This document shows positions 25,272-29,749 of a DNA stretch of 30,131 bases, in pieces. The notes beneath the pieces were generated by a model that saw only the letters and a program-made list of their open reading frames with translations, had not been told where the DNA came from and did not search any database. Source of the DNA: a virus; the IMG/VR virus record IMGVR_UViG_3300042867_000091, positions 1-30,131 of that record; one strand, written 5' to 3'. A program made the position numbers and the translations under genes. Within the stretch, counting starts at the first letter, position 1. Each line of letters starts with the position of its first letter.

Positions 25272-26023
25272 AACGGACTCACATCATCCAGATCGTCATG
25301 CAATGGTGCAGACCGCATAGGGTTGACACGTGCCATACCATTCTTGTACGGGTTTAAACTGTTTAGATACGTAGGATATATCCGCTGCTGGTTATAATGA
25401 GGAGTTGAAATAGTTTCTGGAAAAGTAAAACCACGAGACTTAAACTTCTCTACACGCCACTCAGCAATACGGCTCTTCTGATTAGGAATAAGATGCTTCT
25501 TCACAATAGCATCGAAGGTCTTGCGCGTGAGATGAATCTTGTCCGCATAGTAGGATACCATGCAGTGAGTAAAATCAAAATGCTGAATCAACTCTTCGCG
25601 AGTCTTATAATTTGTGTATATGACTTGATTCTGATTCTTGTCTTGCCACACACCGATAATCTTGTCGTTGTCGCGCTTGTAGTCTTCCGTAACGTCAATA
25701 AGTCCAACCAACATATACTCAAGAACATTCTTCACTTTAACCTGTTCTTGAGTATCACCGATCACAAAGATATCATAGTCTTTCGGATGCTCACCATGAT
25801 ACCATGAAGTGAAGCAGCCGCCGGCAATTACAACATTGTTCTTGAAGATATCGTTTAGACGAAGACTCTCGAAATGAATTCGAGCCTTATTCTTCATATC
25901 AAGAATCTTCTGTGTTTCGTAGTGATCAAATGTATTTGTCTGTGTGTCTGTCATATCTCTCTCATAATAACGAAGTGCATCAATCGTTTTCCACCATTCA
26001 GGTGGGCCTTTAAGTCCAATCAT
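25268..26023 (-). CDS. Nucleotidyltransferase-fold protein, function unknown
   Basis: 251 residues. Residues 64-87 (VVIAGGCFTSWYHGEHPKDY followed by DIFVIG) show the minimal nucleotidyltransferase signature: Gly-Gly (68-69) and an Asp-x-Asp pair (Asp82, Asp84). A third carboxylate is not certain. The C-terminal half has a conserved-looking FDFTHCMVSYYADKIHLTRK stretch. Similar proteins occur in large phages, but the substrate is unknown. It is inserted between gp33 and gp59, which are neighbours in T4, with four-base overlaps on both sides, so it is translated with the replication/late-transcription genes. It could modify nucleic acid or a small molecule; antitoxin-like or tRNA-directed roles cannot be excluded. 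Confidence 0.72.
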   Translation of the reverse strand: MIGLKGPPEWWKTIDALRYYERDMTDTQTNTFDHYETQKILDMKNKARIHFESLRLNDIFKNNVVIAGGCFTSWYHGEHPKDYDIFVIGDTQEQVKVKNVLEYMLVGLIDVTEDYKRDNDKIIGVWQDKNQNQVIYTNYKTREELIQHFDFTHCMVSYYADKIHLTRKTFDAIVKKHLIPNQKSRIAEWRVEKFKSRGFTFPETISTPHYNQQRIYPTYLNSLNPYKNGMARVNPMRSAPLHDDLDDVSPF

Positions 26024-26250
26024 ATAGGAAGTTTGGCTGTATTTGATTTAGGTAAGAAGTGTAGTTCTTCCGCTTCAACTTGAATCTTTGCCTTCAATGC
26101 TCCTGAAATAAGCTTTGCAGATAGTTCCACTTCTAGTCCAATTTGACTACAATGTTCAATTACTGCATCCATGTAAGTCATATTCTTTTTCTTTGCAAGT
26201 TTCTCAACACCGAGAGAAAACGTAAGAACTTCATCTTTTGATGGTGGCAT
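26020..26250 (-). CDS. 33: Late-transcription coactivator gp33
   Basis: 76 residues; T4 gp33 has 112, while forms in cyanophage-like relatives are shorter. The sequence FSLGVEKLAKKKNMTYMDAV, then IEHCSQIGLEVE and ALKAKIQVEAEELHFLPKSN, fits those gp33 proteins, which begin with a helix and end with a Leu/Pro-rich tail. Known role: bridges RNA polymerase and the sliding clamp so that gp55-type late promoters fire. The T4 order 33-59-32 is kept apart from one inserted gene. The ATG (26248-26250) directly follows the HtrA-like stop. Late-promoter-like TAAATA sites elsewhere in the window fit its presence. No gp55 gene is in the window. Confidence 0.82.
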   Translation of the reverse strand: MPPSKDEVLTFSLGVEKLAKKKNMTYMDAVIEHCSQIGLEVELSAKLISGALKAKIQVEAEELHFLPKSNTAKLPI

Positions 26251-27291
26251 TTACTTGCTCTTGTCCGGTTCATATTCTTTTGATAGTTTGTAGTTTGTAA
26301 TCACATCAATCATTTGCTTTTCACCATTTCTTTCAATTAGAACTTTGATCTTTTCGTCAGCACCACTTATTGTGGCCATTTCGGAAACCAAACTATTAAC
26401 ATCGGTAATTTTCAAACCAGTTGGATGATTGTTTGGTGTATAAATTTCCAGTATCTTATCACCAACTTTGATTCCTGCCTTATCAGCAGCACCATTCTCA
26501 TCAATTGAATTTACTATAGCATAGTTCCCATCATCTGTCAACCCAATACTTACATTCATTGCTCTCCATCTAACTTCACCGAATAATTGGAAATCACCAA
26601 GGACTTTCTTGAGCAGAACAGAAGGAATACAGAAACCATATGATCCACCTTTTCCTTCAAACATCAATTCGCTAACACAGATAACTTCCCCTTGTTCATT
26701 GAAGACAGGACCTCCTGAGTTGCCTTGAAAAATTTTAGCATCAACTTGATCTACATACTTTGGATTTGATCCTACGCGACGATTTTTGGAAGACATAATA
26801 CCTTCGGAAACTGTCCATGTGAGTCCCCACGGATGACCAATAATAACTACCTTGCTGCCTTCTTCCATCTCACGACTATCACCAATCGGAAGAATAACTG
26901 CTCCCTCATGTTTCTTAAACTCATCCCACTTCTTTAACTTAAGAATTGCTATATCAACAATAGCATCGGTACTAATAACCTCAGCCTCATAACGAGTTTG
27001 GTCATTGGCTGACACAACAGTTAGTTTGCCATTGCCTTCAATAACATGATCATTCGTAACGATTAAGTTCTCGCCTATAATGAATCCAGTACCGATGCCC
27101 CCGTTTGTGGTATCAAGCTTATTTTCTATGAGTACTGTGCCTTTTTTAACTGTACGGACTACTTGTTCAGTGCTTTTTATAGAACCAAATGCCCCTGTAT
27201 ATAAGACAACAGTTGCAGTGAGGAAAGATATTATAATAATATACAGTATTATACATATATGATGTCTTATGGGAAAATCTTCTGTCTTCAT
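26251..27291 (-). CDS. Membrane-anchored HtrA/DegP-like serine protease with PDZ domain
   Basis: 346 residues. A transmembrane helix (about residues 12-33, HICIILYIIIISFLTATVVL) should anchor it with the protease in the periplasm. The trypsin-like domain has a complete triad: His82 in LIVTNDHVIEG, Asp113 in AIVDIAILKL, Ser192 in FQGNSGGPVFN. Residues about 235-335 form a PDZ-like domain (YAIVNSIDENGAADKAGIKV followed by GDKILEI). This is the DegS/DegP layout with one PDZ. The start overlaps the upstream membrane gene by ATGA and the stop abuts gp33, so it is coupled to the channel genes. Possible roles: processing envelope or channel proteins, or acting on host surface proteins; none is shown by sequence. 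Such a protease is not part of the T4 core set. Confidence 0.9.
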   Translation of the reverse strand: MKTEDFPIRHHICIILYIIIISFLTATVVLYTGAFGSIKSTEQVVRTVKKGTVLIENKLDTTNGGIGTGFIIGENLIVTNDHVIEGNGKLTVVSANDQTRYEAEVISTDAIVDIAILKLKKWDEFKKHEGAVILPIGDSREMEEGSKVVIIGHPWGLTWTVSEGIMSSKNRRVGSNPKYVDQVDAKIFQGNSGGPVFNEQGEVICVSELMFEGKGGSYGFCIPSVLLKKVLGDFQLFGEVRWRAMNVSIGLTDDGNYAIVNSIDENGAADKAGIKVGDKILEIYTPNNHPTGLKITDVNSLVSEMATISGADEKIKVLIERNGEKQMIDVITNYKLSKEYEPDKSK

Positions 27292-27881
27292 GGCTGTTTT
27301 CCTTTCGGAGGTGGTGCCCCCTGTTCTACAATTTCCAGATCACCAGGTGTCTTTGGTTTGTAGGTGTCTTTTTGATTAGATAATAGTTTATTCATTATGT
27401 TATTCATGAGAACACCAATCTCACTCAAATCATCCATGCCTTGTTGACCTTCACCGCTGCCTTCTTTAGGCGGTATACCATTTATACGTACTTCTTTACC
27501 TTCAGCCATAGCCTGTTTTGCTTTTTCAAACTGGGCGGCACGGTTGTTCGAATACTCCACATAGAATGTCTTTGGTGCTATACGTGGATATAAGTATTTA
27601 TACGATTCAGGTTTTTCAGTCAAAAATATTGATATGTAAATGCCACCTTTGTCTGTAGATGAAGGATTAACAATCACAATTGAAGCAAGAGTGCCTTTGA
27701 CTTCATTTGGCTCTTCTGCGGGCCATCCTTTTACACCATCAAGTGCGAAATATACACAATTAGCAAGAACGACAAACAACGCAATAGAAGCAAACTTCAC
27801 AAGAGAGTTATTCCAATACAAGGATATTGCCATCACAGCAACAGCAAATAGCGCGAATACTAATAGAAATGTCTGTGTCAT
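27288..27881 (-). CDS. Small bitopic/polytopic membrane protein of unknown function
   Basis: 197 residues. Two hydrophobic helices at about residues 3-22 (TFLLVFALFAVAVMAISLYW) and 28-47 (VKFASIALFVVLANCVYFAL) are followed by DGVKGWPAEEP and a soluble domain of about 120 residues (SYKYLYPRIAPKTFYVEYSN). A Gly/Glu/Pro-rich tail ends QGAPPPKGKQP. Proteins with a similar two-helix plus GWPA motif occur in distant T4 relatives as far as I recall, without known function. Four-base overlaps on both sides place it firmly between the ExbD/MotB-like and protease genes, so it may belong to the same envelope complex. Confidence 0.75.
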   Translation of the reverse strand: MTQTFLLVFALFAVAVMAISLYWNNSLVKFASIALFVVLANCVYFALDGVKGWPAEEPNEVKGTLASIVIVNPSSTDKGGIYISIFLTEKPESYKYLYPRIAPKTFYVEYSNNRAAQFEKAKQAMAEGKEVRINGIPPKEGSGEGQQGMDDLSEIGVLMNNIMNKLLSNQKDTYKPKTPGDLEIVEQGAPPPKGKQP

Positions 27882-28522
27882 TGTAATCCTCTCTCGCCTC
27901 TAACAGAAACGAAATCGCTCATAGTGCGAATGATATTCTTTTGATCATCCATAACGAAGCGTATCGCAGTCTTTTCCTGCCACACAAAATTCATCTTCAT
28001 GTGAATTGTCTTCTCGACCACAAGATTTGGATTGATCCTGATCACTTCAACAACTAAAGGAACTTCAATTGGTTCATCAACAGGTAGCCCCAAGTTGCTT
28101 TGAGAATTCAAGCATGAGTATAGATGTAAGTTCACAACATATTCACCAGGGAATGTACCGCGCAGTGTTATGTACTCTTTGTTATCTGGATCAATAACAA
28201 CTTCTTCTCCATTGATATCGTATACGCTTCTACGCTTACCCATATCATCACGCTCGAAATACATTAGACCAGATTCTGGTATTTTGTACGATACGATATT
28301 GTTTAGTGGATCACGCACCCACAGATCAACGTCACAGTCAACAGCCTCAGGCCATTCCAATGTGATTATGTAGTCGGCATTTTTCTTAATGCCTTCGTTG
28401 TTCTTTGTGATTGGTGCTATGAGAAGAGTTGTGAGTATGAACAGGACAACTGTGCCTGTCAATAAATTGATCAGTAGGTCAATATATGCGGTACGAAAGT
28501 CAAACTTCTTATGGTTTGTCAT
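27878..28522 (-). CDS. MotB/ExbD-like channel partner with extracytoplasmic beta domain
   Basis: 214 residues. A single helix near the N-terminus (YIDLLINLLTGTVVLFILTT, residues 13-32) has Asp15 at its start, where MotB, TolR and ExbD carry their essential proton-accepting Asp (compare the YxDxxxxxxxF pattern). The short basic N-terminus (MTNHKKFDFR) predicts the soluble part outside the cytoplasm. That part (residues about 45-205) is not an OmpA/peptidoglycan-binding domain; it has EWPEAVDCDVDLWVRDPLNN, a DVDLWV-x-DP pattern like DUF2135-type beta domains. The start overlaps the MotA/TolQ-like gene by 14 bases, as expected for subunits of one complex. The beta-domain assignment is tentative. 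Confidence 0.8.
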   Translation of the reverse strand: MTNHKKFDFRTAYIDLLINLLTGTVVLFILTTLLIAPITKNNEGIKKNADYIITLEWPEAVDCDVDLWVRDPLNNIVSYKIPESGLMYFERDDMGKRRSVYDINGEEVVIDPDNKEYITLRGTFPGEYVVNLHLYSCLNSQSNLGLPVDEPIEVPLVVEVIRINPNLVVEKTIHMKMNFVWQEKTAIRFVMDDQKNIIRTMSDFVSVRGERGLQ

Positions 28523-28973
28523 CGTAGATCACCACATACAATAATGTCTTGGTGATCAGGCTTGATAGAATACCGACAGCATTAGTATATAACGCGATTC
28601 CCAATCCAACAGACATGTTAGCAAGCAATTTGGCCAGACTTGTCGCGTCGGTAACTGACGCCGATGTGATGCCTGACGATAAGAGGTAAATGAAGCCAAT
28701 AACGGTACCTAACATACCGAGCGCCAACATCTGTTCGGAACCAAACCAAACAGCATCGATCAACTTTTTATTATCTCTTGTCTTGTTTGTGTATGCGATA
28801 AATCCAATCGCAGCAAGGGCTGTAATATACAACACCCCAAGCAAAGATGTGATCAGTGTCACATCGTCGTGCCAAATCTTTTCGGTGATGCCAGCATATG
28901 TTGCCCAGTAAAAGGCAGTGGCGGAAGCAAGGACAGATACCCACCAAATGTATAAGGGTCTAACTAATTTCAT
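28509..28973 (-). CDS. MotA/TolQ/ExbB-type proton-channel protein
   Basis: 154 residues with four likely helices (about 7-25, 38-60, 81-100, 118-148). The last two carry the family signature: LGMLGTVIGFIYLLSS, then LAKLLANMSVGLGIALYTNA followed by VGIL, matching the Gly-x-Leu-Gly-Thr-Val and (M/L)-x-x-Gly-(L/I)-x-x-A-L-x-T motifs of ExbB/TolQ/MotA. Asn131 takes the place of a second Thr often seen. The protein lacks the long cytoplasmic arm of MotA and is nearer a minimal TolQ/ExbB. The start ATG (28971-28973) has AGAAGGA upstream and a TCTAAATA site before that. It leads the envelope module and is probably paired with the next gene. Confidence 0.85.
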   Translation of the reverse strand: MKLVRPLYIWWVSVLASATAFYWATYAGITEKIWHDDVTLITSLLGVLYITALAAIGFIAYTNKTRDNKKLIDAVWFGSEQMLALGMLGTVIGFIYLLSSGITSASVTDATSLAKLLANMSVGLGIALYTNAVGILSSLITKTLLYVVIYDDKP

Positions 28974-29293: not shown

Positions 29294-29749
29294 TTATTGC
29301 AGAGTTAATGCGGCAACGGCAGCAGCGACATTAAGTCCTGTCTGACCCTGCACACTGAGAGGCTGAAGTGTAATGTTGTTATTCAGCCCACCTACGAGAG
29401 CGTTAGCTCCCAATCCAGCAACTACGGTAGCTTCGGCATTAACGCCAATGTAAGTACCAGAAAGATCGGCACCAGAACCGGTTGGCGACATTACGATCCA
29501 TGCGATGACCTTATTGTCGGTATATCCAATGTCAACACCAATCTTGGTGATGTTGCCCTTATACTGAGTCTTCTTTCCATTAGAAGCAGTAAATACGCAA
29601 TCAACCTTCTTGCTTGAGCCAATAACCCAACCCCAGCCAGAATGTACCTTGCATGAAAGAACACCAGTCTTAAGTTCAGCAGCATTAGCAGATGAGGTTG
29701 CAGCGAATAGACCCAGTGAAATTAGGGCCGCAGTGAAAAACTTCTTCAT
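29294..29749 (-). CDS. Secreted DUF992 family protein
   Basis: 151 residues. A signal peptide (MKKFFTAALISLGLFAATSS, then ANAAEL; cleavage after residue 23 or 24) is followed by a complete DUF992 pattern: TGVLSCKVHSGWGWVIGSSK, VDCVF, YKGNITKIGVDIGYTDNKVI, then LSGTYIGVNAEATVVAGLGA and NITLQPLSVQGQTGLNVAAA. Cys33 and Cys51 may form a disulphide. DUF992 proteins are small periplasmic or outer-surface proteins known mainly from Rhizobiales chromosomes; function is unknown. A phage copy suggests acquisition from such a host. It follows the tmRNA, with GGAG before ATG 29747-29749. It may act in the envelope with the channel/protease genes, an inference from proximity. Confidence 0.87.
   Translation of the reverse strand: MKKFFTAALISLGLFAATSSANAAELKTGVLSCKVHSGWGWVIGSSKKVDCVFTASNGKKTQYKGNITKIGVDIGYTDNKVIAWIVMSPTGSGADLSGTYIGVNAEATVVAGLGANALVGGLNNNITLQPLSVQGQTGLNVAAAVAALTLQ

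Follow-up and report, generated by a model that had tools for sequence, protein, structure and literature searches.

A candidate proton-driven envelope transducer of the MotA/TolQ/ExbB type carried by phages and chromosomes of alphaproteobacteria

The window analysed here, the whole 30131-base stretch of IMG/VR virus record IMGVR_UViG_3300042867_000091, carries a three-gene cassette, A-B-C, that probably specifies a minimal proton-driven transducer, built from A and B and acting on the periplasm of the infected cell. Gene A (28509..28973, minus strand, as are B, C, P and the gp33-like gene below) encodes a MotA/TolQ/ExbB-like membrane protein of 154 aa with four transmembrane (TM) helices, and gene B (27878..28522) an ExbD/TolR/MotB-like protein of 214 aa with one N-terminal TM helix and a presumed periplasmic beta-sandwich; these two reading frames, which overlap by 14 nt, were found where a sequence-only reading of the DNA had placed them. 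The range given there for the system, 27878-28973, was too narrow: gene C (27288..27881; 197 aa), which overlaps B by 4 nt and encodes two N-terminal TM helices followed by a small soluble domain bearing a P-R/K motif, is part of this conserved unit, as often is gene P (26251..27291; 346 aa), encoding a membrane-anchored trypsin/HtrA-like serine protease with a PDZ domain. Of the phage-borne channel pair proposed earlier, phage carriage stands, and the pair is replaced by a set of three genes beside which a protease gene is frequently found. The overlaps of 14, 4 and 4 nt between neighbouring genes suggest translational coupling. A gene for a gp33-like late transcription coactivator (26020..26250; PF16805, 7.1e-17) abuts P and is context outside the cassette. 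The surroundings are of T4 type, the downstream genes also including a nucleotidyltransferase, a gp59-like helicase loader and a gp32-like ssDNA-binding protein. Upstream of the cassette, a gene at 29294-29749 of the window encodes a DUF992 protein (E 6.4e-47) that likely has a signal peptide, and a second DUF992 gene is close to the cassette in one further phage locus.

The product of A belongs to the MotA/TolQ/ExbB superfamily, as the sequence-only reading had supposed. The window protein itself scores 12.6 bits against PF01618, below the 22.9-bit Pfam cut-off; the family is matched by 22 of its 27 phage homologues (best 1.7e-8), and chromosomal homologues score above the same cut-off, at 32.9 and 36.2 bits. 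When a profile of A homologues was compared with PDB sequences, the majority of the matches listed came from the MotA/TolQ/ExbB family, including ZorA, MotA and TolQ chains (E 0.007 to 0.7), with alignments spanning the helix that carries GTxxG and the last helix; the GTxxG motif of the third helix is kept in A. An AlphaFold (AF2) model based on 33 sequences (pLDDT 81) places helices at residues 5-26, 29-36, 41-62, 69-104 and 110-150. Every one of its best 18 structural matches is to ExbB, TolQ or ZorA (Z 10.9-13.1); the first unrelated match follows at Z 10.1, which for a helical bundle leaves a modest margin. With Foldseek, neither the model of A nor that of B matched a PDB entry at E 0.001 or below. 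PADLOC profiles identify ZorA (7.6e-5), which is the nearest named motor to A in some profile libraries (PADLOC/NCBIfam), while a PHROGs search returned no family for A, and tblastn with A against named phages gave no match, the carriers among them being reached through B and the genes around it. At the position of the cytoplasmic domain of its relatives, A has a loop of about six residues, and the protein ends just past its last helix; A would thus be a very small wheel subunit, and to our knowledge none smaller has been described.

The partner protein has the topology of ExbD, TolR and MotB, namely a single N-terminal TM helix bearing a conserved Asp. In the AF2 model of B (pLDDT 81.6), the helix covers residues 9-35 (28418..28498) and the beta-sandwich residues 51-201 (27920..28375 when counted from residue 50). 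Residue 15 (codon 28478..28480) is Asp in 110 of 113 distinct homologues, in keeping with the essential-type Asp that had been read in this helix; two of the three exceptions carry an Asp one alignment position away, and the third is N-terminally truncated. The same homologues all keep W57, D64 and D66, and nearly all keep D92, D93, G95 and E116. No profile match links the TM helix with ExbD or MotB, and the likeness to these proteins is drawn from the single membrane span, its Asp and the association with A. A and B are neighbours wherever the contig extends far enough among the 130 phage and prophage loci that we fetched (some of them repeats of one contig), and this adjacency, together with the conservation of Asp15, is far beyond chance.

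The remainder of B shows no recognisable extracytoplasmic domain of such partners. No ExbD, TolR or OmpA-family Pfam match was obtained for B or 28 homologues at E values up to 1, and neither Pfam nor PADLOC returned a peptidoglycan-binding domain for B, bearing out the earlier description of a partner that lacks a peptidoglycan- or TonB-binding domain and has a non-canonical one instead; PHROGs offered only non-significant families. The suggested relation to DUF2135 was upheld by hhalign, which aligned the B beta domain with DUF2135 proteins at 87% (E 3.9e-6, 109 columns), compared with 3.3% or less for reversed and 30 shuffled control profiles. In single-sequence searches against DUF2135 (PF09906), both window B and a chromosomal B (12.6 versus 22 bits) fell under the Pfam cut-off. 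Structural comparison ranks TerD first (3ibz Z 11.0, 2qng 9.9, 2qz7 9.8, 2kxt 8.8; DUF4425 follows at 5.8), the TerD matches extending over 133-144 residues. Homology of B to TerD (PF02342), a cytoplasmic protein, drew no support from the profile comparison, at 0.4%, and we retain a resemblance in fold. We read the domain as a DUF2135-related sandwich with a TerD-like shape. Its acidic motifs, DxD, RDDxG and a Glu, might bind calcium, although this is a guess.

Among the 130 loci, A-B-C occurs alone in 57, as A-B-C-protease in 42 and as protease-A-B-C in 22; the order A-B-C is thus found in 121, and the other nine, two of which show B-C-protease, are interrupted by a contig end. C follows B in every locus without such an interruption, and PHROGs gave only non-significant families for it. 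A protease gene adjoins the cassette in 66 of the 130 loci, and because it may lie on either side of A-B-C according to phage group, the link with the protease has survived rearrangement. The product of P matches Pfam Trypsin_2 (2.1e-30) and PDZ and contains the motifs TNDHV and GNSGGP. In other phages, a gene for SbmA/BacA (PF05992) lies immediately upstream of A (L041:4492-5514, L043:4496-5521, L048:4477-5514 and L093:1861-2883) or near the cassette (L083, L071 and L070:7616-8611, the last two perhaps closely related to one another). Neither a recognised protease nor a BacA neighbour is present in about half of the loci. That proteases and SbmA/BacA transporters alternate as neighbours in different phages raises the idea of nutrient or peptide handling, in which the device would supply energy for using periplasmic peptides that the protease produces or BacA transports. 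Nevertheless, no outer-membrane receptor or TonB-like linker is seen beside the cassette, and SbmA/BacA is itself proton-driven, so that we regard this explanation as unlikely.

The cassette recurs in many alphaproteobacterial phages. A tblastn search with B found 27 of 50,697 phage records, all from Rhizobium or Sinorhizobium phages, and these named carriers comprise Pootjesviridae, the RHph_N3_13 group, RHph_I1_18 and the group of temperate phage 16-3. In phage 16-3 the protease, A, B and C are p036, p038, p040 and p042, respectively. The region that follows this cassette (L062 7631-10122) contains p044, whose sequence we take to be that of a calcineurin-type phosphoesterase, and p047, annotated as a Ser/Thr phosphatase, which recalls the kinase and phosphatase neighbours of A-B-C in hosts. 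Homing endonuclease-like genes separate A from B in two related rhizobial phages (L063:4225-4983 and L065:4252-4989). The cassette occurs both in temperate phages (the 16-3 group and rhizobial genomes L123-L128) and in large virulent phages; in Pootjesviridae it adjoins genes for a topoisomerase, a late sigma factor and a recombination nuclease. These locations bear on the earlier suggestion of a role in lysis timing, for which one mechanism would be a proton leak, the channel dissipating the membrane potential late in infection. A is indeed a small multi-TM protein with a match to holin_4, albeit a non-significant one (E 0.025) and the sole match of this kind, and we rejected a holin identity for it. 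Since the cassette sits among replication and transcription genes, whether the gp33-, gp59- and gp32-like genes of the window or those of Pootjesviridae, and a leak needs no conserved periplasmic domain, such a role is disfavoured, and we consider it very improbable.

Nor is the cassette confined to phages. In a sample of 385 alphaproteobacterial genomes, the B profile found matches in 66, of which 55 are strong (E below 1e-30), and a survey of 398 genomes of the phylum gave 16 strong matches. The first 15 host regions fetched contain A and B in every case and C in 14, and among the further regions listed A and B are also present, with C in most. Several of these loci adjoin genes that we read as RecO-, AcpS-, PyrE- or PurB-like and lie on megabase-size contigs, and are on both counts chromosomal; for a few others, a prophage or a phage contig sorted into the genome bin is conceivable. 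In one locus (L172:93-3315), three tandem protease-like genes that match the cassette-protease profile lie upstream of a divergent chromosomal A-B. The apparent housekeeping neighbours of several chromosomal counterparts tell against superinfection exclusion, a function raised in the sequence-only reading, by which motor and protease would block or degrade incoming phage components in the periplasm; the literature search likewise found no such phenotype. Presence in temperate as well as large virulent phages, a neighbouring protease of periplasmic type and the standing of anti-phage ZorA as the closest named motor to A in some libraries (PADLOC 7.6e-5) are all consistent with exclusion, which on balance we hold to be an improbable function.

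The abundance of strong host homologues invites a further explanation, that the phage A-B-C is a decoy which poisons or replaces the host A-B-C machine. The latter might sense envelope damage. Also in favour of a decoy, in one host group (L163:3246-5431 and L202) the genes after A-B-C encode, by Pfam, a calcineurin-like phosphoesterase and a protein combining a Ser/Thr kinase with a USP domain; on the other side of the cassette lies what, judging by the sequences, is an apparent two-component pair. In a FastTree phylogeny of B domains, however, phage and host versions fall mostly into separate clades, arguing that the phage copies are not recent host copies, and the carriage of C and the protease as well suggests a working device; we therefore think a decoy unlikely. 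The 16-3-type phages group with one set of hosts in this tree and the large phages lie elsewhere, apart from hosts, deep support being weak for both placements. Phages have likely acquired the cassette two or more times.

Compared with known systems, the TM core is that of the MotA/TolQ/ExbB superfamily, whereas the periplasmic domain and gene set are unlike those of Zorya, Ton, Tol or flagellar stators. ExbB-ExbD and TolQ-TolR share with the cassette the fold of the A subunit (Z up to 13.1), the GTxxG motif, adjacent genes and a single-TM partner with an Asp in its membrane helix; A differs from ExbB and TolQ in an extra N-terminal TM helix and the near absence of a cytoplasmic domain, B from ExbD and TolR in carrying the DUF2135-type sandwich and no recognisable ExbD/TolR domain, and the cassette as a whole in its additional protein C and in that no TonB/TolA-like linker was seen. 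Zorya likewise has a four-TM A-type subunit, and ZorA is the best PADLOC/NCBIfam similarity of A. Membership of Zorya was nonetheless rejected: A is only weakly ZorA-like and, at 154 aa, lacks the long ZorA tail, B has no recognisable peptidoglycan-binding domain such as that of ZorB, no ZorC, ZorD or ZorE genes accompany the cassette, and the cassette is phage-carried. MotA-MotB similarly combines a four-TM wheel subunit with a one-TM partner bearing an Asp, but A is without the torque-generating cytoplasmic domain and B without the OmpA-like domain. DUF2135 proteins (PF09906) have a beta domain with a DxDLHV-type motif, although none of the examples we fetched is the one-TM partner of a motor subunit, and TerD (PF02342) is alike in fold without profile support.

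In motors related to this cassette, five A-type subunits surround two B-type helices and protons pass via the Asp. For the stoichiometry, the use of protons, the topologies of B and C, the contacts with partners and the role in infection, we infer the following scheme. A ring of A, pentameric by analogy, would enclose a dimer of B, and protons would pass between Asp15 of B and the conserved Thr/Gly motif of A, turning or shifting the B helices. Insofar as A and B behave like their known relatives, this motion would be transmitted to paired DUF2135-type beta-sandwiches, through which work would reach the periplasm. There the sandwiches may act on envelope partners; gene linkage makes C, the protease or BacA the natural candidates, most likely C and the HtrA-like protease in this phage, with the SbmA/BacA peptide transporter as an alternative in others. 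The device would thereby remodel or clean the periplasm of the infected cell at an early or middle stage of infection. The protease/peptide role taken by itself is doubtful. The broader proposal, that A-B-C constitutes an undescribed class of ion-driven motor, common in alphaproteobacteria and acquired by at least two phage lineages, with a DUF2135-type axle driving a protease or peptide transporter, remains tentative, its chances falling somewhat short of even.

Bacterial proton-driven motors serve motility, outer-membrane transport, division and anti-phage defence, and we found no report of a tailed phage with a proton-driven motor of its own. Among papers accessible without subscription, the literature search returned no description of phage MotA/TolQ/ExbB systems or of the combinations DUF2135 with ExbD, TerD with MotA, or BacA with ExbB. 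The portion consulted of a 2025 survey of non-flagellar relatives describes assorted DUF appendages and mentions neither phage members nor DUF2135 (PMC12505986). The chromosomal A-B-C would represent a general alphaproteobacterial envelope machine, unstudied so far as our search of the literature found, and with classical phage 16-3 the cassette becomes tractable in the laboratory. That temperate and virulent phages alike carry it, with A-B-C in unchanged order, argues that the cassette is useful during infection.
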